A stretch of DNA of 64,000 nt from a bacterium (GTDB taxonomy: Bacteria > Bacteroidota > Ignavibacteria > SZUA-365), in assembly GCA_020444325.1 (NCBI GenBank), contig JAHLLD010000007.1:124001-188000 (forward strand). Direction: 5' to 3'. Below, piece after piece: positions 25,723-49,287 of this stretch; within the stretch, counting starts at the first letter, position 1, and every line of letters starts with the position of its first letter. A program made the position numbers and the translations under genes. A model generated the notes under the pieces. It was not told the origin of the DNA and searched no databases. It worked only from the letters and a program-made list of their open reading frames with translations.

Positions 25723-28300
25723 CCACCTGCGAGGCGCCGGAGGGTTCACGTATGAGTTCGACCAGGTGTCCCGCACCGGCAAAGCTTTCTTCGTGACTGA
25801 TGATGAAGAGCTGGTCGAACCACGGATCGCTGTCGCCGGTGAGCTGTTCGAGATGCTGGATGACGTCAGCGAGATGACGGCGGGTTTCGCGGTCGAGATG
25901 CGTTGTCGGTTCATCGAGGAAGCCGACGCGGCATTGCGCGTACCATTTGATGAGTGCCAGCTTGACGGCGAGGGAGACGCCCATGAGTTGTCCACCCGAG
26001 AGTTCGCGTCCCCGCACCCGTCCCGCCTCCCCGCGCAGCTCGACGGCGTACGATTGCGCATCCCACACCAGCGTCATCCCCTGCTCGGGCGCGATGCGCT
26101 GGTACAGATCCGCGGCGAAGGCAGACAGTGCCGTCACGATGCTGGCGCCCACGTGACGTGCGAGTTCACGCACGACGGCATTATGCACATTCTGCATAAA
26201 ATCCGCCTCAGTGCTGCTCCGGGATGCTGATTTCAGAAGCTTTTCATATTCCTTACGATCTTTGCCAAGTACTCTGACTGCTTCCTCCTGCGTGCTGACT
26301 CGCGTCTTCCATTCCGCCAGCAGTCCGGAAGCCTTTCTTTCCAGAGCCAGCGCAACCTCCCATTGCGCTTTCGTCTCCAGGTAATCCTTTTCCGTAAAGG
26401 CTTTCTCCTGCTTCGTCAGTTCTTTCTCAGCTGCGGTCAGCGTCGCGTCTGTCTCCTTCTCAGCCTCCTGTGCCGCCTCGCATTGCTTCGTCCGTTCCCC
26501 GACGGCACTCGCGAGATTCTGCAGCGAGAGAAATCGCGTATGCGCTTCCCGGTTGCTCTCCAGCTGCTTTTCAAGTGCTGCGATATCTTCATCCAACGTT
26601 GTAAAGCCCAGCAGCGACTCCTGCAGCTTCCCTGATTGCAAGTTCCAGTCCTCTTCAAGCGCTTTCAGCTCGCGGGCTACACTCAGGATTTCCTTTTCCA
26701 GTGCGGTGCGGGATTTCTGCAGCGCCTCAATCTCGGCTTTCCTGTCATCCAGTCTGCTACGGGCAGACTTCCCCTGCTCCCGCTTCGTGCCAAGCGCTTC
26801 GGTGGCGCGGCTTGCCTCTCGACGTGCGCTTTCCTCCTCCTGGTTCGCGCGCTTCCGCAATTCCGCAAACGGTGATCTGGCGCCTTCGCCCCCCTGCGTC
26901 TCAAGATACTTTCCGAAAAACTGCTCTGAGGTTGATTCCAGTTCGGCGAAGAAATTGAGCTTCACATCAGAATTCCGCTGATACTCCTGAAGCTGTGTGA
27001 AGGAATTATGCAGTTTCTGCATATTTTCACCGAGGTTTTCCAGCGTCTGCTGCGCGCCGTGCATTTCGTCGACGAAGGAACGGGCTTCCGCCGTCGCCGC
27101 GACGCGATCTTCGAGACGGACTTTCTCCTTCTCGATCGCCCTGTACTCTTCAAGCAGTGTCTCGATTTCCTTTTCGAGTGGGGCGCAATCCGCTTCTGTT
27201 TTTTCCAGCTTCTCGGCGGTTTCCTTCAACTGCGCCTCGGCATATTCGCGCCTCGACTGCAGGCGGATTTTTCCTTCATCGAATTTCTTCTGCAGTGCGT
27301 TGAGGGTATCTTGCGCGACATCGCGTCGCTTGGCGGACGCCCGCAATACGGATAGCTCACGATCTGCGGCGATGAACGCGTCATACCCGGGACGCACGGA
27401 TTCAAGTTCTTCCGCAGCCTCGCGTGCCTCCTGCAGAAGCGCCTCGGCGTTTTTCAGCGCGCTGGACTGCGACTTGCGCCTGTCCTTGAGCAGCTGCACT
27501 TCGTGGCGCTGTTTCGCGAGTGCCTCGCGCTGCGCAGTGAGCTTCTCCAGTTTCTCCTGCAGCGCCTTTTCCTCCACTGCCGCAGCCTCGGCGTCGTTTT
27601 GCACGGATGCAAGTTGCTCTACGAATTCCCCAAGCAGCTTTTCAGCCTCCACCTGCTTTTCGACGACTCCAGCTCGTTCCTCGACACGTATCCCGAGCGT
27701 ATCAGCCTCATCCCGCTGCGCACGTACCAGCGCCCAGAACTGTTTCTCGAAATGCTGGAAATCCTCAATGCCCAGAATCTTTTCGAAGAGCGTCCGACGC
27801 TCTTTCTCCTGCTGCGTGAAGGGATCGTCGAAGGCACCCTGTTCGGTACCGACGATATTGCGGAATAGCTCATCGTCGTCAATGCGTGATGCGCCGATGA
27901 TGTGCTCACGCATATCCTCCTGGAAATCCTCCTTCCTCCCGGCACTGGAAGAAATCTCGGTCCCTTTTGCATCAAAAAGCCTGCGCTCATAAGAGAGCTT
28001 CTCCCGGCCGCCCTGGCGACGGCTTCCGATATTGCAGAGAACGCGGAAATCCCTCCCGCGTGCCTGTACATCCACTTCGATGCTGCCCTCTTTTTCCCCG
28101 TTACGCAGCAGACCTGCGTACGCCTTTCCGTCCATCAGCTTTTTCGGCCAGGCGCCGAAGAGTGCGAGTCCCACCGCCTCGATAATGGTGGATTTCCCTG
28201 TACCATTCGCCCCGGCAATGACGTTGATGCCACGGATGAATTGCAGCTCCGCGTCGATGTAGGATTTGATGTTCTGTAAACGAACAGCGGTGATAATCAT
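25718..28300 (-). CDS. sbcC: SbcC/Rad50-like ATPase
   Basis: 860 residues. SMC-like ATPase subunit of the SbcCD DNA end-processing nuclease. The N-terminus has Walker A in VIAGANGTGKSTIIEAVGLALFG. A long coiled coil fills about residues 180-700. The C-terminus has the signature LSGGQLMGVSLAVKLAL and Walker B VGFLDEPTTHLD. I see no CxxC zinc-hook motif in the middle of the coil; the region around YLETQGGEGARSPFAELRKR may be the turn. It overlaps sbcD by four bases (ATGA), so translation is coupled. Two TTATGCA palindromes lie in its coding sequence. Confidence 0.9.
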   Translation of the reverse strand: MIITAVRLQNIKSYIDAELQFIRGINVIAGANGTGKSTIIEAVGLALFGAWPKKLMDGKAYAGLLRNGEKEGSIEVDVQARGRDFRVLCNIGSRRQGGREKLSYERRLFDAKGTEISSSAGRKEDFQEDMREHIIGASRIDDDELFRNIVGTEQGAFDDPFTQQEKERRTLFEKILGIEDFQHFEKQFWALVRAQRDEADTLGIRVEERAGVVEKQVEAEKLLGEFVEQLASVQNDAEAAAVEEKALQEKLEKLTAQREALAKQRHEVQLLKDRRKSQSSALKNAEALLQEAREAAEELESVRPGYDAFIAADRELSVLRASAKRRDVAQDTLNALQKKFDEGKIRLQSRREYAEAQLKETAEKLEKTEADCAPLEKEIETLLEEYRAIEKEKVRLEDRVAATAEARSFVDEMHGAQQTLENLGENMQKLHNSFTQLQEYQRNSDVKLNFFAELESTSEQFFGKYLETQGGEGARSPFAELRKRANQEEESARREASRATEALGTKREQGKSARSRLDDRKAEIEALQKSRTALEKEILSVARELKALEEDWNLQSGKLQESLLGFTTLDEDIAALEKQLESNREAHTRFLSLQNLASAVGERTKQCEAAQEAEKETDATLTAAEKELTKQEKAFTEKDYLETKAQWEVALALERKASGLLAEWKTRVSTQEEAVRVLGKDRKEYEKLLKSASRSSTEADFMQNVHNAVVRELARHVGASIVTALSAFAADLYQRIAPEQGMTLVWDAQSYAVELRGEAGRVRGRELSGGQLMGVSLAVKLALIKWYAQCRVGFLDEPTTHLDRETRRHLADVIQHLEQLTGDSDPWFDQLFIISHEESFAGAGHLVELIREPSGASQVV
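26181..26199. repeat. TTATGCAnnnnnTGCATAA palindrome, copy 1
   Basis: TTATGCACATTCTGCATAA inside sbcC, read as FMQNVHN on the coding strand. One of six copies in the window. Confidence 0.65.
27006..27024. repeat. TTATGCAnnnnnTGCATAA palindrome, copy 2
   Basis: TTATGCAGTTTCTGCATAT inside sbcC, read as NMQKLHN on the coding strand. Same phase as copy 1. Confidence 0.65.
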
Positions 28301-37943: not shown

Positions 37944-38010
37944 TCCCCTCCGGGAGGTCTGGATAGCGAAAGCAGCCTGCTGCCTGGCTGACTATGGAAA
38001 AATGGAAGAA

Positions 38011-38054
38011 TTGAAAGATGGAAATATGTCCTCAAGGATGTTTCCATCTTTCAA
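38011..38054. repeat. 14-bp inverted repeat of the GATGGAAA type
   Basis: TTGAAAGATGGAAA (38011-38024) and TTTCCATCTTTCAA (38041-38054) are perfect arms. Similar GGAAA-type tracts flank it and recur at 17176-17210 and 40310-40335. Confidence 0.6.
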
Positions 38055-38078
38055 TCATTCCATCATTCCATCCTGAAT

Positions 38079-38167
38079 CGTCCCCACGCTCCTTGTCACG
38101 CCGTAGTCCTGAAGGGACGAAGGCGGATGCGTGGGGACGCAGATCTCTGAATGCTCCGCGTTCATTC
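38079..38167. repeat. REP-like palindromes left of the RAYT gene
   Basis: CGTCCCCACGC (38079-38089) pairs with GCGTGGGGACG (38129-38139). The loop holds a nested stem, CGCC...GTCC...GGAC...GGCG. A GAATGC-TCC-GCGTTC element follows near 38150-38165. The same arms with short loops occur right of the gene. Confidence 0.75.
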
Positions 38168-38197
38168 CATTCTGCAATAGCAACCAGAGTTTATTCC

Positions 38198-38734
38198 ATG
38201 ACCATATCACGCTACCATTTTTTCAAACTTAATCAACCACATTTCCTGACATGTACTGTCTCCGAATGGCAACCGATTTTTGCGTATCCTGAATACAGGG
38301 ATATCGTTCTCAACAGCCTTTCCTTTCTGACCAGCACGCGGGATCTTACCCTCCATGCCTACGTCATCATGGAGAATCACCTGCACATCATTGCCAGCGG
38401 ACACGATATTGAGAAACAAATCTCACGATTTCGATCCTATACGGCGCGCAGTATACTTGATCTTCTTGAGGCTAGCCGCAGAAGCAAAATACTTGACCTT
38501 TGCAAAGGAAAGGGATTAGCACTGCGTCGTGACAGAACGCATGCACTCTGGGAAAGCGGCTCATATCCGGAACTGATTCGCAACATGACAATGATGGAAC
38601 AGAAAATTAACTACATACACAATAATCCGCTTAGACGCGGTTACGTAGATGATCCCACACATTGGCGATATTCATCTGCCAGAAGCTACTCTGGATATGC
38701 AGGGGAATTGGATGTGGAAATTCTGGGCTTGTGA
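38198..38734 (+). CDS. REP-associated tyrosine transposase (RAYT, Y1-type HUH)
   Basis: 178 residues from the ATG at 38198. Single-strand transposase-like domain of the IS200/IS605 superfamily. The HUH motif is NHLHIIAS, preceded by LHAYVIMENHL. The nucleophile Tyr is expected in INYIHNNPLRRGYVD, and the RAYT hallmark DPTHWRYSSARSY follows. Related proteins cut and rejoin REP palindromes. The gene is flanked on both sides by such palindromes (38079-38167 and 38740-38866). It appears intact. Confidence 0.9.
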   Translation: MTISRYHFFKLNQPHFLTCTVSEWQPIFAYPEYRDIVLNSLSFLTSTRDLTLHAYVIMENHLHIIASGHDIEKQISRFRSYTARSILDLLEASRRSKILDLCKGKGLALRRDRTHALWESGSYPELIRNMTMMEQKINYIHNNPLRRGYVDDPTHWRYSSARSYSGYAGELDVEILGL

Positions 38735-38739
38735 TCGAA

Positions 38740-38866
38740 TGAACGCAGAGCGTTCAAGGCTTACGTCCCCACGCAGAGCGTGGGGACGATGAGCGAATGC
38801 GTGGGGACGATGAGCTGCGCGACGCGCAAACACTTGCGCGAAGCGCAAAGAACGCCCCGAAGGGGC
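38740..38866. repeat. Array of REP-like palindromes right of the RAYT gene
   Basis: Five perfect palindromes with three-base loops, plus one half-element. TGAACGC/AGA at 38740-38756; CGTCCCCACGC/AGA at 38764-38788; lone half GCGTGGGGACG at 38799-38809; TGCGC/GAC at 38816-38828; TTGCGC/GAA at 38834-38848; GCCCC/GAA at 38854-38866 (arm/loop given, second arm is the reverse complement). Confidence 0.8.
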
Positions 38867-38923: not shown

Positions 38924-39397
38924 TCAGCTCAGATCCGCGAAGTCCGCTTCGATCAGTGCTGCCAGGTCCCCGGGTGCGATGAGGATCTGCGCCCCATGCG
39001 CGCCGGCGCTGACGTGGATGCTCTCGAAGAGCTGCGCGGTCTCGTCGATCCACGTGGCGAATTGCTTTTTCATTCCGATCGGGGAACAGCCACCGCGGAT
39101 GTAGCCGGTGAGCGGCAGCAGCTCTTTCGCGCGTATCATTTCCACTTTCTTGTTGCCGCTGACGGAAGCGGCTTTCTTCAGGTCGAGTTCGAATGGACCC
39201 GGGATGCAGAACACCACGATGCCCGTCTTATCCCCCCGCGCCACCAGCGTCTTGAACACTTTCTCATGCTCCGCACCGATCTTGTCGGCGACGGAGATCG
39301 CATCGATTTCCCCGTCCGAACTGTCGTAGGTGATCTGTTCGTGAGGAATATTACGTGCTTCGAGTATGCGGGTGGCGTTGGTTTTGGTCGTGCTCAC
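38924..39397 (-). CDS. ybaK: YbaK/EbsC-type Cys-tRNA(Pro) deacylase
   Basis: 157 residues, the usual size. Trans-editing enzyme that removes Cys mischarged on tRNA(Pro). Signatures: TNATRILEARNIPHEQITYD, a substrate Lys in KVFKTLVARGD, and LPLTGYIRGGCSPIGMKK. Convergent with the palindrome array of the RAYT region; divergent from the next gene. Confidence 0.92.
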   Translation of the reverse strand: MSTTKTNATRILEARNIPHEQITYDSSDGEIDAISVADKIGAEHEKVFKTLVARGDKTGIVVFCIPGPFELDLKKAASVSGNKKVEMIRAKELLPLTGYIRGGCSPIGMKKQFATWIDETAQLFESIHVSAGAHGAQILIAPGDLAALIEADFADLS

Positions 39398-40224: not shown

Positions 40225-40272
40225 GAACGCAGAGCGTTCTCCAGAGGCGTCCCCACGCAGAGCGTGGGGACG
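40225..40272. repeat. REP-like palindrome pair, same order as beside the RAYT gene
   Basis: GAACGC/AGA palindrome at 40225-40239 and CGTCCCCACGC/AGA palindrome at 40248-40272, directly after the stop at 40219. Order and orientation match 38740-38788. Confidence 0.8.
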
Positions 40273-40358: not shown

Positions 40359-40428
40359 GGCCCCGCCAGGGGCGGGGCCAAATACGATCCCCGCGAAGCG
40401 GGGAGCAACAACGATCCGTCGAAGACGG
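40359..40428. repeat. Three tandem palindromes downstream of pckA
   Basis: GGCCCCGCC arms at 40359-40379, CCCCGC/GAA at 40389-40403 and CCGTC/GAA at 40416-40428. The last lies 12 bases past the pckA stop on the minus strand and may act as a terminator. Confidence 0.7.
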
Positions 40429-40439
40429 GTCAATAACTT

Positions 40440-42302
40440 CTACCTCCACCGCCATACACCGGGTTTGCGGGGACGCTTGACCGGTTCTTCGCGCTGGACG
40501 ATGACGCGGGGTTCGGAAGCCGTAACCGGACCTCCAGAGGGCATGGGAGCAGATGCGGTCGGAGCAGCACTGCGCCGGGTGGTGTCGCCCATGGCGCGGA
40601 AGCTGCGCTCGGCAGCGGCGATGAGCTCGGGACGGAGTCCTTCTTTCGCGATTTCCTCGAGGAAGGCGCGGCGGCCGCGGATCAGATCCTTGATGTAATA
40701 GTCGATCTGTTCCTGGCTGTAGAGGTGATGGACGTCCCATTCCTCCATGCGCTTGCCGTCGGCTTCGACGATGCTCTCGGTACCGAGGATGCCCTTTTCC
40801 CATTTGTTGGTGCCGCGGAGATCACCACGCTGAATGGCGGCCATCAGATCGAGAGGCACACGCTCAGCCTTGCGAACCATCCGCTTACGCATCGTACCGT
40901 GATCATCGGTCTCCTCTATGATCTCGCCCATGCCGCCCGTGTTGTAGAGACGGAACTGCACCTGGCCGGGATATTTGTTGACCAGCTTCATGATGATATC
41001 GTAGAAGCGGTTCACCTTGCGTCCGCGGCTGCCGATGATAAAATCATCAGTACCCACGATGCGCACCGAGTCACCGGCCTTTTCCGGGTTGGCGGCAAAG
41101 CTCAGTGTGGATTCGCCGAACAAGTACGCCAGCACGCCCTGCTCGGGAGTGAGCTTCTGTGCAAAGGGCATGATGGTGTTGCGCCTTGTGATGAAGGCAA
41201 ACCAGAGGTAATCATTCTCTTCCAGACTGGGGAGGTTGATCGAGGGCGCCGCGATGGAGATCAGCTTGTTCTCGCGCTCGATGAACAACTTGTCCATGCG
41301 CACCACGGCACGGCCGTTCCCGCAAAGACTCTCGTCGAGGAAATCGATATTCCCCTTCGAATCGACCATGATGTTTTCCAGCAGCGCGCTCTTGTGCGTC
41401 AGAGCGTAATGCATGGCTTCCTGGTCGGATTTCCGCACGTCGGTTTTCACATAGAAGTTGTGCTCCGACCCGTAGGCGGAACCGTCGTCCTTGAGGAAAC
41501 AGATGTCATCCTGCGATGCGTATGTCATTTCCCCGCGCTTGGGATCCATCTCGAGCTGGTGACAGCTCCAGGTGGATTTTCCCGTTGCCGTCATACCGAA
41601 GAGGATGACGCCGTGACGCTTCAGGGTATTTTCCTTCGCGTCGCGTGCGACTACCACCTTACTGCCGGCGTGCAGTCCGAGCATGCCCTTCTCATCCGCC
41701 ATCCACATGGCCTGGCGCAGGAAGCCCTTCTTGTCCTCGCCCAGGTAGTCACTGCCGAGGCAGATGTTGAGATTGAACTCGGGCATGGTGAGGATTTGCT
41801 GGCGACTCTGATGCTCCTCGGGGATGTGAATCATGGTGACGGCGGGACCCGGACGTCCGCTGGGCTCGTCGAGCAGGTTGCCCCACATGTAAGCGAGACG
41901 CGCATTGCGCCAGTCGCCAACACTCAGGTACAACGTACAGACAGGGTTGTAGTCAGGATTGTTTCCCATCTGCCGCGTAAGCTTGATAAACGGCAGCGTG
42001 GTCATCCAGTTGAGTACCTTCTCCAGCTCATCCGGCGCGTTTTTTACCACTTTTTCCTGGTAGGGAAGAAGTTTGGGAAGGCGCACGAGTTCGGAACCGA
42101 GGTACACGGTTTTTGCGGCGAGACGCGAACTCTGCACCGAACGCCAGACATGTGAGCCGTACTGGGTTTTCTGCGCGAACTCCTTGACGCGCGGCTCCAG
42201 CCACTTCAGGTTGACTTCCCGGATGTTCGGTCCGTCAAGCTTCGTGACGAGCTGCTCGTAGAACTTCTTGTATACGTCGTTGTTGTAAATGTCTTTCGCC
42301 AT
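40440..42302 (-). CDS. pckA: Divergent ATP-dependent phosphoenolpyruvate carboxykinase
   Basis: 620 residues from the ATG at 42302, which has GGAAGG upstream and lies four bases after the preceding stop; a start at 42329 would overlap that gene. Expected reaction: oxaloacetate + ATP to PEP + CO2 + ADP. The P-loop is GMTATGKST (residues 236-244), where E. coli has GLSGTGKTT. The metal motif is SQDDICFL, and HKSALLENIMVDSKGNIDF matches the PckA core. FGESTLSFAANPEKAG and FRLYNTGGMGE continue it. About 60 residues of Pro/Arg-rich tail are extra. Probably co-transcribed with the aminotransferase fusion upstream. Confidence 0.8.
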   Translation of the reverse strand: MAKDIYNNDVYKKFYEQLVTKLDGPNIREVNLKWLEPRVKEFAQKTQYGSHVWRSVQSSRLAAKTVYLGSELVRLPKLLPYQEKVVKNAPDELEKVLNWMTTLPFIKLTRQMGNNPDYNPVCTLYLSVGDWRNARLAYMWGNLLDEPSGRPGPAVTMIHIPEEHQSRQQILTMPEFNLNICLGSDYLGEDKKGFLRQAMWMADEKGMLGLHAGSKVVVARDAKENTLKRHGVILFGMTATGKSTWSCHQLEMDPKRGEMTYASQDDICFLKDDGSAYGSEHNFYVKTDVRKSDQEAMHYALTHKSALLENIMVDSKGNIDFLDESLCGNGRAVVRMDKLFIERENKLISIAAPSINLPSLEENDYLWFAFITRRNTIMPFAQKLTPEQGVLAYLFGESTLSFAANPEKAGDSVRIVGTDDFIIGSRGRKVNRFYDIIMKLVNKYPGQVQFRLYNTGGMGEIIEETDDHGTMRKRMVRKAERVPLDLMAAIQRGDLRGTNKWEKGILGTESIVEADGKRMEEWDVHHLYSQEQIDYYIKDLIRGRRAFLEEIAKEGLRPELIAAAERSFRAMGDTTRRSAAPTASAPMPSGGPVTASEPRVIVQREEPVKRPRKPGVWRWR

Positions 42303-42306
42303 GGGA

Positions 42307-44661
42307 TTACCTTCCGTTACCGCTGACATGAGTCAAAACGTGCTGCACCATATCGGTTACCGTTGATGCCCCGGCGTTGAGCTGGTAGACGTCGGCCGAC
42401 TGGAAGAGCTTCTTGAAAAAGCGCTTCTGCAGTTCGATGCGTTCGTCAGTCTTGACCAGCAGATGGGGATTGTAGAACGGATGCTGTGTGCCGCCCGACG
42501 AAGTACCCGCGGGATAGCCCATCTCCACGGTGTGCAGGGCGTCGTCAATGTCCATGCGTTCGACGGCGGAGGATACCGGGTCGTTGCGCAGGATGAAGAC
42601 GTGGCGGATATCGATGCGTTTGACGTGCCGCGCCATTCCGCCGAGCCAGTACGGATCGAGCATGGCGTGCGACTTCTTTGCGCAGTCGTAACTGTACGGG
42701 GCGCCGCTGTTGAGGGGACAGCTTTCGTTGAGGCGATGCTGCTCGTTGCGGCAGTCTTCCACCTTCGTGATGACGTTCTCGCATTTGCTCTTGTCGAACA
42801 GCTTTGCGAGGGATTCATGTGCCCGCACGGCATTAGTTGGGATGTACATCTTTCGCTCGGGGTTGTCGGCAGCGGCGTATCCACCACCATAGCGCAGGAA
42901 GATGTAATCGTAACTGTGCAGGGCCACGGCTTCGTCTTCCTGGAAGACGCGCCAGAACAGGTCGGTTTTCTTCGTGCCTGAAGGACCGATGAACATCACG
43001 CCTTCGCCGTTGATGTCCATGGTCAGGGCACGTACCGCGTGGATGTCGAAGACACGCTCGGCAACGTCGGTCACGAGTCCCAGCGCCAGCGAACGCAGCG
43101 AGCCGTAATGATCCGAATTGAACAGCACGCCGGTCTTGGTGTCGGAATTGTAGAATGCATGCGGCTCTCGACCGGGCGCACCGTCGACCGCGTAGATCAC
43201 GCCATGTGGTTCGATGTCCGCTTCCAGCTGTGCGGGATACCAGTTCTCTACCCAGAAGTCGTAGAGGTGTCCGACATTGGTACGCAGCTGCACGATCATG
43301 CCGTTGATGTTGGCATTCCACTCGAAGTAGTTGCTGTAGCCAAGCTGCGCTTCCGCTTCGGCCACCATGGCATCGCGCATGCCGACCTTTACATCCCAGT
43401 CCACCGGCACGTAATGTTTGTGCACCGTCTCGGTGTTGGTCAGCTTGATGAGCTTGCGCTTCGGCGCCGGCTTGAGTTTGGCCAGCGCGCCTGCGAGACG
43501 CTCCATGCCTTCCTGCAGGTTGGCCATGGAAGTTGCGTAGCTGATGCGGATGAAATCGTCCGTCCCGAATGCGTCACCCGGCACGATGGCCACGTTCGCA
43601 TGCTTCAGCAGGAAGTAGGCCATGCCGTAGCTGTTGCGAATGGGAACGCCGTCGTATTCCATCTTATAGTAAGCGGACATGTTCGGGAAGGCGTAGAATG
43701 CGCCGCGGGGCATGGGACAGCTGACGCGGGGCATGGACTGCAGCTTGTACACCACGAAGTTGCGTCGCTTCTCGAACTCGGCGGCCATCTTCGAGATTTC
43801 ATACTGCGGTCCTTTATACGCCTCGAGCGCGGCTCGCTGCGAGATGGAACTCGGGTTGGATGTGGCGTGGCTCTGCACTTTGGCCATGGCCGAGATAATC
43901 TCGGGGGAAGCCGCGGCCCAGCCAATACGCCAGCCCGTCATCGAGTACGCCTTGGACACGCCATCGATGGTGATCGTCCGCTTGCGCACTTCCTCGTTCA
44001 GCGACGCGAAGCGGGTGAACTTCAGGCTGTCATATATCAGCTTGCCGTAAATCTCGTCGGCAATGCAGATGAGATCCTCTTCCACAATGACTTCGGCCAG
44101 CGCTTCGAGTTCTTCACGCGTGTAGCCGCTGCCGGTGGGATTGGAAGGATTGTTCAGGAACACCGCCTTGGTCGACGCATTGACCGTATCGCGCAGCTGC
44201 TCGGGTGTCAGGCGGAAGCCGTCTTCCTCGCGGGTCTGCACGATCACGGGACGACCGTTCGCCAGCTTCACCATTTCCGGGTACGACACCCAGTAGGGAG
44301 CGGGAATGATCACTTCGTCGCCATCGTTGACGATGGCCATCATCGCGTTGTAAATGGAATGCTTCGCGCCGTTGGAGACCATGATCTCCGTGGCCGGGTC
44401 ATACGAGAGCTGATACTCTTCCTCGAGATGCCGCGCAATGGCCTTGCGCAGCGGGAGGATGCCCTCGTTGGCCGTGTACTTGGTAAAGTTCTCGTCGATC
44501 GCCTTTTTGCCGGCCTCCTTGATGTGCGCGGGTGTCCCGAAATCGGGCTCACCCACACTGAGGTCGATGACATCGACCCCCTGCTCCTTGAGCGCCTTGG
44601 CCTTGGCGGCGACTTTCAGCGTCGGCGAAGAACCTATAAGGTGAATTCTGTCTGCCGTCAC
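42307..44661 (-). CDS. Aspartate aminotransferase fused to a PEPCK/HprK-like P-loop domain
   Basis: 784 residues. Residues 1-395 form a complete class I PLP aminotransferase: DLSVGEPDFGTP, the PLP Lys at 237 in TIDGVSKAYSMTGWRIGW, NNPSNPTGSGY, and the substrate Arg in DFIRISYATSMANLQEG. This resembles bacterial aspartate aminotransferase. Residues about 400-784 are a second module with a Walker A-like GPSGTKKTD (559-567), embedded as in HPr kinase or PEP carboxykinase. Its exact family is uncertain. The next gene is a full PEPCK-like enzyme, so the pair could link aspartate, oxaloacetate and PEP; this is inference. I see no stop or frameshift at the junction. Confidence 0.8.
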   Translation of the reverse strand: MTADRIHLIGSSPTLKVAAKAKALKEQGVDVIDLSVGEPDFGTPAHIKEAGKKAIDENFTKYTANEGILPLRKAIARHLEEEYQLSYDPATEIMVSNGAKHSIYNAMMAIVNDGDEVIIPAPYWVSYPEMVKLANGRPVIVQTREEDGFRLTPEQLRDTVNASTKAVFLNNPSNPTGSGYTREELEALAEVIVEEDLICIADEIYGKLIYDSLKFTRFASLNEEVRKRTITIDGVSKAYSMTGWRIGWAAASPEIISAMAKVQSHATSNPSSISQRAALEAYKGPQYEISKMAAEFEKRRNFVVYKLQSMPRVSCPMPRGAFYAFPNMSAYYKMEYDGVPIRNSYGMAYFLLKHANVAIVPGDAFGTDDFIRISYATSMANLQEGMERLAGALAKLKPAPKRKLIKLTNTETVHKHYVPVDWDVKVGMRDAMVAEAEAQLGYSNYFEWNANINGMIVQLRTNVGHLYDFWVENWYPAQLEADIEPHGVIYAVDGAPGREPHAFYNSDTKTGVLFNSDHYGSLRSLALGLVTDVAERVFDIHAVRALTMDINGEGVMFIGPSGTKKTDLFWRVFQEDEAVALHSYDYIFLRYGGGYAAADNPERKMYIPTNAVRAHESLAKLFDKSKCENVITKVEDCRNEQHRLNESCPLNSGAPYSYDCAKKSHAMLDPYWLGGMARHVKRIDIRHVFILRNDPVSSAVERMDIDDALHTVEMGYPAGTSSGGTQHPFYNPHLLVKTDERIELQKRFFKKLFQSADVYQLNAGASTVTDMVQHVLTHVSGNGR

Positions 44662-47679: not shown

Positions 47680-47791
47680 CGTCCCCACGCTCTGCGTGGG
47701 GACGGGACTTCCGAACGCTCCGCGTTCATTCTTCCCAACAAATCGCCGCAGAGCGGCGGTTGTATACGTCCCCACGCGGAGCGTGGGGACG
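47680..47791. repeat. Four REP-like palindromes with three-base loops
   Basis: CGTCCCCACGC arms with loop TCT at 47680-47704; GAACGC/TCC at 47713-47727; CGCCGC/AGA at 47744-47758; CGTCCCCACGC/GGA at 47767-47791. The first two are in reverse order and orientation relative to 38740-38788. Confidence 0.8.
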
Positions 47792-48841: not shown

Positions 48842-49287
48842 TTATGCAGAATGTGCATAGAGCGCAATGAACAAGGGCGAGGTCATGCCCGGTCAGGAAG
48901 CGATGCGCTGAATATGCGTTGCGTATGCGACATCGGACGGAGCGGAGGAATTGAGATTATGCGGAAACTGCATAATGCGAAAGGCGGGTTCATCGGCGAG
49001 AACTTTCTCGAAGAACGGGAGTCCGGGAGTGTAACAGAAACGTCCCCCGGGACGCAGATTATGCAGAATCTGCATAAAATGTTGAGCGAAACGCGATTCC
49101 AGTCCTGTCTGATGACGGTGATGAAACAGGAAATGCAGGCTGAAGGATTGATGCGCGACTACGGTGCCCCACTGGGCGGCATCAAGCGGCGCCTGCATCC
49201 AGTCCAAGCGCAGAAATCCCTCCGCTCGCGGTGCAAGCCGGTCGACACCGAGTCCCGCCACACCCGCATTATGCAGAAAGTGCATAA
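48842..49287. repeat. Four TTATGCAnnnnnTGCATAA palindromes (copies 3-6)
   Basis: Copies at 48842-48860 (intergenic), 48957-48975, 49059-49077 and 49269-49287 (in the methyltransferase gene). The centre sequences are GAATG, GAAAC, GAATC and GAAAG. The third, TTATGCAGAATCTGCATAA, is a perfect palindrome. Coding copies read IMQFPHN, FMQILHN and LMHFLHN. Confidence 0.7.

Follow-up and report, generated by a model that had tools for sequence, protein, structure and literature searches.

A RAYT gene and its probable cognate repeat of paired hairpins with unlike stems and matching tips

At 38198-38734 lies a RAYT gene, encoding a transposase of the domesticated type; the gene stands between the two halves of a four-hairpin unit, and the transposase probably spreads a repeat composed of hairpin pairs with unlike stems and matching tips. 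(The window, here and below, is the whole 64,000-nucleotide stretch that was analysed, C7:124001-188000 of the source genome, G000.) The REP of this system is a module of two hairpins, an outer one (O, with arms of ~11 bp) and an inner one (I, with arms of ~6 bp), separated by 6-10 nt, and the gene lies between two such modules in inverted orientation. In sequence comparisons, the tips of O and I (the loop and ~3 closing base pairs) change jointly from one RAYT to another. That the RAYT and this REPIN-like repeat are an enzyme and its cognate, with the tip as the feature that is read, is the likely reading, the joint change of tips being what suggests the latter.

The RAYT gene and its four-hairpin unit

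The preliminary description of this DNA took the gene to be intact and the locus to be a RAYT system, and both statements hold. The 178-residue ORF scores 95.7 bits against NCBIfam NF047646 (REP_Tyr_transpos; cut-off 80) and the arm of its cognate REP recurs at 94 sites; a search of Pfam with the protein gives no match. The HxH motif and the catalytic Tyr in YxxxNP that mark Y1 HUH transposases are both present, and among 14 homologs H63, Y139 and N143-P144 are invariant and H61 nearly so. An AlphaFold model built from the 14 homologs (pLDDT 74) has as its best Foldseek match in the PDB the E. coli TnpAREP-REP complex (4er8, E 1.7e-5), followed by ISDra2 and IS608. The gene is present once in the 4.65-Mb genome (25 contigs), and this low copy number combined with cognate REPs on both sides, recurring genome-wide, is characteristic of a RAYT. 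A second Y1 transposase, at C4:175149, is unrelated. A search of plasmids yields only distant RAYTs (at most 40% identity).

Placed by sequence motifs, and not by the authors' HMM, the protein fits TnpAY1 subclass 2.6, equivalent to Bertels group 5, as presented in the main text of PMC6006769: it has 178 residues (the median is 179), NHLH (for NH[LIV]H) and YIHNNP (for YIH[QN]NP), and the modules listed carry no GT[AG]G foot. The WQ motif of the subclass is WE in this RAYT and WQ in the majority of the family.

Palindromes flank the gene on both sides where they had been described (Table 1): the long-loop pair with its nested stem on the left, five perfect palindromes and a half-site on the right, and the two leading elements again, in the same order, near 40.2 kb. 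The 9-nt spacing between O and I upstream of the gene, and their position, are as in other RAYT loci, and the I' palindrome extends to TGAACGC-AGA-GCGTTCA (38740-38756). The transposase of IS200/IS605 elements likewise lies between its end hairpins. The complete unit at 47680-47791, which is beyond what the preliminary description had covered, folds as single-stranded DNA with -54.2 kcal/mol (z -11.6).

Table 1. Positions in the window of the RAYT gene, its hairpins and nearby palindromes
Feature	Position	Strand	Remarks
Upstream outer hairpin (O)	38079-38139		arms CGTCCCCACGC/GCGTGGGGACG; a 39-nt structured loop replaces the 3-nt loop
Upstream inner hairpin (I)	38149-38163		GAATGC-TCC-GCGTTC, one mismatch, then ATT
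RAYT (TnpAREP-like Y1 HUH transposase)	38198-38734	+	178 aa; ENHLH and YIHNNP motifs
Downstream inner hairpin (I')	38741-38755		GAACGC-AGA-GCGTTC, preceded by AAT; repeated in units
Downstream outer hairpin (O')	38764-38788		CGTCCCCACGC-AGA-GCGTGGGGACG, then ATG
Lone half-site GCGTGGGGACG after O'	38799-38809		like tandem half-sites in other units
TGCGC-GAC-GCGCA	38816-38828		short hairpin right of the RAYT
TTGCGC-GAA-GCGCAA	38834-38848		short hairpin right of the RAYT
GCCCC-GAA-GGGGC	38854-38866		short hairpin right of the RAYT
Second I'-O' module, without RAYT	40225-40272		GAACGC-AGA-GCGTTC, then CGTCCCCACGC-AGA-GCGTGGGGACG
Three hairpins 3' of minus-strand ORF 40440-42329	40359-40428	-	outside the RAYT set
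Gene-less complete O-I-I'-O' unit	47680-47791		CAT...ATG brackets; I 47713-47727, I' 47744-47758

The CGTCCCCACGC arm occurs at 94 exact sites in the genome, as against 7 for a reversed control (a few single sites being due to chance or coding sequence). It is thus a classic repeated REP arm, and the initial view that the palindromes here are unlike classic REP families fails for the main element. Most of these sites fall within a unit of ~112 bp, O-I-I'-O', with O arms of 11 bp and I arms of 6 bp. Its left half reads CAT-CGTCCCCACGC-TCT-GCGTGGGGACG, 8 nt, GAACGC-TCT-GCGTTC-ATT; after ~10 nt, the right half reads AAT-CGCCGC-AGA-GCGGCG, 8 nt, CGTCCCCACGC-AGA-GCGTGGGGACG-ATG. When the 14 complete units in the fetched stretches are aligned (110-112 bp overall), the hairpin columns are nearly invariant and the spacers are constant in length and variable in sequence. 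The observation that differing arms belong to one system is confirmed by these 14 units, in which GAACGC, CGCCGC and CGTCCCCACGC occur together in fixed order. In one unit (L044) both arms of both inner stems are altered with pairing kept. All but one of 37 inner hairpins lie at most 120 bp from an O site, and none is found in a 400-kb REP-free sample of the genome or in 400 kb of the relative G004. REP loci are clustered, with 15 gaps between neighbours of less than 30 kb against 4.5 expected, and lone O hairpins lacking I are also present (L037, L052). Two inverted REPs with a spacer, dispersed in copies, constitute a REPIN, and the 14 complete units have this form; the 112-bp unit has the two ends of the RAYT element but not its gene and would thus be a non-autonomous copy. 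An Rfam search returns only matches below threshold, one kind to long inverted repeats and the other to a terminator, and a search of the running text of papers with the arm sequence finds no REP paper among those listed.

Several further repeats lie in or near the REP units. Outer hairpins that have a structured insert of ~40 nt (CGCCGTAGTCC...GGCGG type) for a loop are found at 38079-38139, with the same layout at G000:C16:97901-97961, and at L171:1183-1250; in the relative G003 the outer arms at the orthologous site are the same and enclose another insert, a pattern that would fit the nesting of hairpin elements within REP loops. Beside the RAYT, 37993-38072 is a long imperfect inverted repeat of short ATGGAAA/TTTCCAT-type repeats; dozens of similar stretches exist in G000 and G003, and REP units often adjoin these or degenerate repeats of ATCTGCA type. 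At G000:C5:155975-163300 (L042), a tract of ~1 kb is repeated four to five times within 10 kb at 97-99% identity, its copies interspersed with REP units.

The hairpins with GAC and GAA loops (38816-38866 and 40388-40428) do not belong to the RAYT set, with which those right of the gene had at first been wrongly grouped: their loops are different, elsewhere they show no association with REP units, and GCGCGAAGCGC/GCGCGACGCGC are equally common in the RAYT-free G004. Those at 38816-38866 probably belong to the 3' region of the tRNA-editing-domain gene on the minus strand (38924-39397; 38854-38866 is terminator-like in a scan of that strand); 40359-40379, the last of three hairpins, has a TTTTTT tail and is an intrinsic terminator, and both groups (38816-38866 and 40359-40428) are read as 3' ends of minus-strand genes.

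The two-hairpin module and its tips beside homologous RAYTs

Similar hairpins flank fifteen homologs of the RAYT (42-59% identity), which come from Deltaproteobacteria, Planctomycetes, Poribacteria, a Cyanobacteria MAG, Bacteroidetes and Methylococcaceae. Of 395 phylum-level genomes, 85 gave a match; with the addition of further loci, 86 RAYT loci were examined. Most of the genomes are MAGs. Within 330 bp of these RAYTs, 56 kb of DNA contain 96 outer hairpins and 58 O-I modules, as against 5 and 4, respectively, in 62 kb of control DNA taken 700-1400 bp away. A perfect O-I module is found by strict search, which accepts only perfect stems, in 35 of the 86 loci, and about half of the loci gave none. 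The order is O-I upstream and I-O downstream of the RAYT, O-I spacing is mostly 6-10 nt, and the sequence takes the form 5'-CTCGTTCCCA...-loop TCY-..., 6-10 nt, then a short hairpin with the same tip. The foot of O is CT in most lineages and CAT in that of the window. The constancy of layout originally noted at a single locus is accordingly seen as a two-hairpin module beside homologous RAYTs in several phyla.

Covariation of the tips was assessed in 25 loci made non-redundant by clustering at 60% identity, the null being generated by shuffling the I sets among loci. Identity between O and I at positions -1, -2, -3, -4 and -5 is.66,.75,.79,.54 and.28, compared with.61,.54,.36,.45 and.25 after shuffling: agreement is strong at -2 and -3, marginal at -1 (where C is found nearly everywhere) and at -4, and at background at -5. 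The 3-bp tip is identical in 0.54 of O/I pairs as against 0.15 when shuffled, and none of 2000 shuffles reaches 0.54 (the shuffle ignores relatedness, against which the missing signal at -5 and the recurrence of joint switches serve as safeguards). The first two loop bases also agree between O and I. Automatic tip calls are noisy, exact agreement being found in 25 of 35 loci, and at some loci O and I differ at the closing pair (AAGG/AAGC; L109, L116).

Setting a tree of the RAYT against the REP sets of its relatives, as had been proposed at the outset, bears out joint switching of tips on a tree that is quick and has many weakly supported branches: GGC (L074/L080) and AGC (L085) arise inside a CGC group, and there are an ACC clade (L113, L114, L119, L181, L192) and GGC and AGC groups.

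Repeats across each genome match the tip of that genome's own RAYT. Hairpins with CGTTCCCACGC number 76 in G420, 13 in G411 and 12 in G406, whose RAYTs have the ACGC tip and that O arm, and 0 in seven other genomes; in five of the seven the arms or tips are plainly different, and in the other two (G408, G415) the arms near the RAYT are all truncated ones, CCCACGC. In G418, where CGTTCCCACGC is absent, CCCAA[GC]C hairpins with a 4-nt loop number 75 and, among the matches listed, are all AAGC, like the flanks of its RAYT; they are mostly AACC in G072, which has an AACC RAYT, mostly AAGC in G308, and all AAGC among the matches listed in G065 and G174. None is found in G000 and five other genomes.

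Mechanism and competing readings

The enzyme would read the tip, not shape alone or the whole sequence, because the tip changes as a set across relatives of many phyla. The hairpin tip may be the main point at which the RAYT binds folded single-stranded DNA, different distal stems being tolerated, and its cut may fall close to a dinucleotide conserved at the foot of O (CT in most lineages, CA(T) here); action on single-stranded hairpins and cutting at such a dinucleotide are suggested by analogy with TnpAREP and IS608 (PMC8266576). Units would then be copied or moved into intergenic DNA, and a RAYT whose preference for a tip changed would found another lineage of REPs. The loop and closing pairs are the candidate specificity element because O and I tips covary, the base of O (CTCGTTCC) being more widely conserved. 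A more far-reaching proposal is a tip code, in which the loop and ~three closing base pairs are recognized, the distal stem is ignored, two hairpins are needed at each end, and switches of tip found lineages across phyla; we hold it tentatively, at slightly under an even chance.

The main rival to tip-reading is copying between O and I, which could also yield shared tips. The system would then be an ordinary REPIN in which O alone is recognized by its whole sequence and foot, I being a passenger whose tip is shared through duplication or gene conversion. O is indeed the most repeated element, it exists singly without I (L037, L052), and its foot-proximal part, CTCGTTCC, is common to many RAYTs. 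A duplicated hairpin, however, would not show a match that fades at about -4 and has reached background by -5; within one unit the inner hairpins have two different arms (GAACGC, CGCCGC) and a common tip, paired changes maintain the inner stems (L044), and I lies at a fixed distance from O in distant RAYTs. This makes the ordinary REPIN unlikely. It is quite improbable that the hairpins act mainly as RNA (as terminators or mRNA 3' ends) or as sites for gyrase or another protein, with the RAYT incidental. Terminator-like hairpins do exist in this stretch, and REPs of other bacteria have such secondary roles (PMC2817692, PMC3733652), but across phyla homologous RAYTs have the module to either side of them, which DNA 700-1400 bp away does not, and repeats genome-wide carry the tip of their own RAYT.

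That any arm-NNN-arm hairpin is a substrate, as shape-only targeting would have it, is scarcely credible: arms do vary within one array and intergenic 3-nt-loop palindromes do exceed the shuffled level, but a like excess is seen in the RAYT-free G004 and for 4- and 5-nt loops, non-tip hairpins have no association with units, and tips and loops are RAYT-specific. The statistics cover 785 kb of G000 stretches, including 400 kb selected to lie apart from REP sites. Among the 3-nt-loop palindromes of the window, 20 have arms of at least 7 (5.1 expected) and 5 have arms of at least 9 (0.35 expected); palindromes with 4-7-nt loops are close to expectation. With arms of at least 5, the 3-nt-loop count is 107 against 77.5, and those of 5-6 bp are individually unremarkable. 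Intergenic 3-nt-loop palindromes with arms of at least 6 occur at 9.8 per 10 kb in the REP-free G000 sample (n=31) and 6.2 per 10 kb in G004 (n=21), an approximately threefold and twofold excess over shuffles, respectively. Comparison with the RAYT-free relative, which the preliminary description had set as a test of its proposal, cuts two ways. Generic palindromes are about as common there, so shape-only targeting, under which the arm would be irrelevant and generic palindromes enriched only with a RAYT, is disfavoured; the specific unit is absent from it and so is not refuted by this comparison. The suggestion that shape matters more than sequence is also at odds with the outer arm being a repeated sequence and with the tendency of one RAYT's hairpins to share a tip.

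Another palindrome of the same genome, TATGCAG-NNN-CTGCATA (loops mostly AAA, TTT, AAT or ATT), occurs 185 times in G000 and once in G002 (control 0), and 0 times in ten other genomes of the family. In the window it lies at 27007-27023 and 49060-49076, with degenerate copies at 26182, 48843 and 49270. Copies are often paired or tripled 32-33 bp apart, sometimes apparently within genes, and are unlinked to the RAYT units; none is found in 20 kb around the second Y1 transposase at C4:175149.

Known systems and the genus

The GTAG REPINs and BIMEs of E. coli, Pseudomonas and Stenotrophomonas resemble the present system in being intergenic inverted palindrome pairs with a low-copy RAYT flanked by cognates. 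Unlike them, it has no GTAG foot and has two hairpins per end, with unlike stems and a shared tip; its units are present in modest numbers, as against hundreds of Pseudomonas REPINs. With IS200/IS605 elements (IS608, ISDra2) it shares the fold, HUH/Tyr chemistry, a gene between subterminal hairpins and, in those elements, a loop base contacted by the transposase, but they have one hairpin per end where there are two here. IS200/IS605 elements are not known to be accompanied by dispersed repeats without the gene such as those seen here.

The closest described relatives are the flanks of subclass 2.6 (mainly Bacteroidetes), which the main text of Quentin et al. 2018 (PMC6006769) characterizes, by manual inspection only, as 'atypical secondary structures' lacking GT[AG]G, with copies elsewhere in the genome. 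No two-hairpin module and no covariation of tips are described in that main text; relative to it, and to the text of PMC3733652, the module appears new. The group 3 REPtrons of S. maltophilia and Marinomonas also have perfect short palindromes. PMC8266576 reports that loop bases are essential for their TnpAREP (by SELEX and mutation) and irrelevant for that of E. coli, and that cleavage is at CT, and also at CA in Marinomonas. These REPtrons differ in belonging to another subclass and having a single hairpin per REP, with GTAG, and the parts of that paper covered here describe no closing-pair covariation between two hairpins.

The CGTC-tagged REPs of Di Nocera 2013 (PMC3733652, main text) likewise start with CGTC and are found in several phyla. 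Membership of that super-family was considered and rejected: CGTC is paired here, in an 11-bp stem with a 3-nt loop, and RAYT-associated, and theirs is described there as an unpaired tag, with 8-9 bp stems, 4-5-nt loops and no RAYT. The TIRYTs of the same text, with 'double palindromic' TIRs, similarly place a tyrosine transposase gene between inverted repeats that sometimes comprise two palindromes; by their description there they are mostly of subclass 2.1, and their GGGGWSAS motif is absent here by inspection.

The system bears on how RAYTs without a GTAG foot recognize their repeats, and illustrates how hairpins of unlike stem can be part of a single mobile system. The natural series of tips (ACGC, GGC, AAGC, AACC; loops of 3 and 4 nt), to each of which a separate RAYT belongs, amounts to a set of ready-made cognate pairs, and the module offers a way to find subclass 2.6 REPs automatically.

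Within the genus, there are 14 REP hairpins in G002, whose RAYT is 43% identical, and its four-hairpin unit follows the same plan. At least five REP hairpins persist in G003 (an 87% complete assembly in which no RAYT was found) and G004 (complete, no RAYT) has 0; other genera have 0-1. At the orthologous sites of G003 and G004 the RAYT is absent, but other rearrangements are present. Ancestry in the genus is not simple vertical descent, because the RAYTs of two species (L088 and 38198-38734) are 43% identical and the neighbouring tRNA-editing-domain gene is ~79% identical in DNA; divergence of this order in sequence suggests that the RAYT evolves rapidly or was acquired independently close to the same locus.
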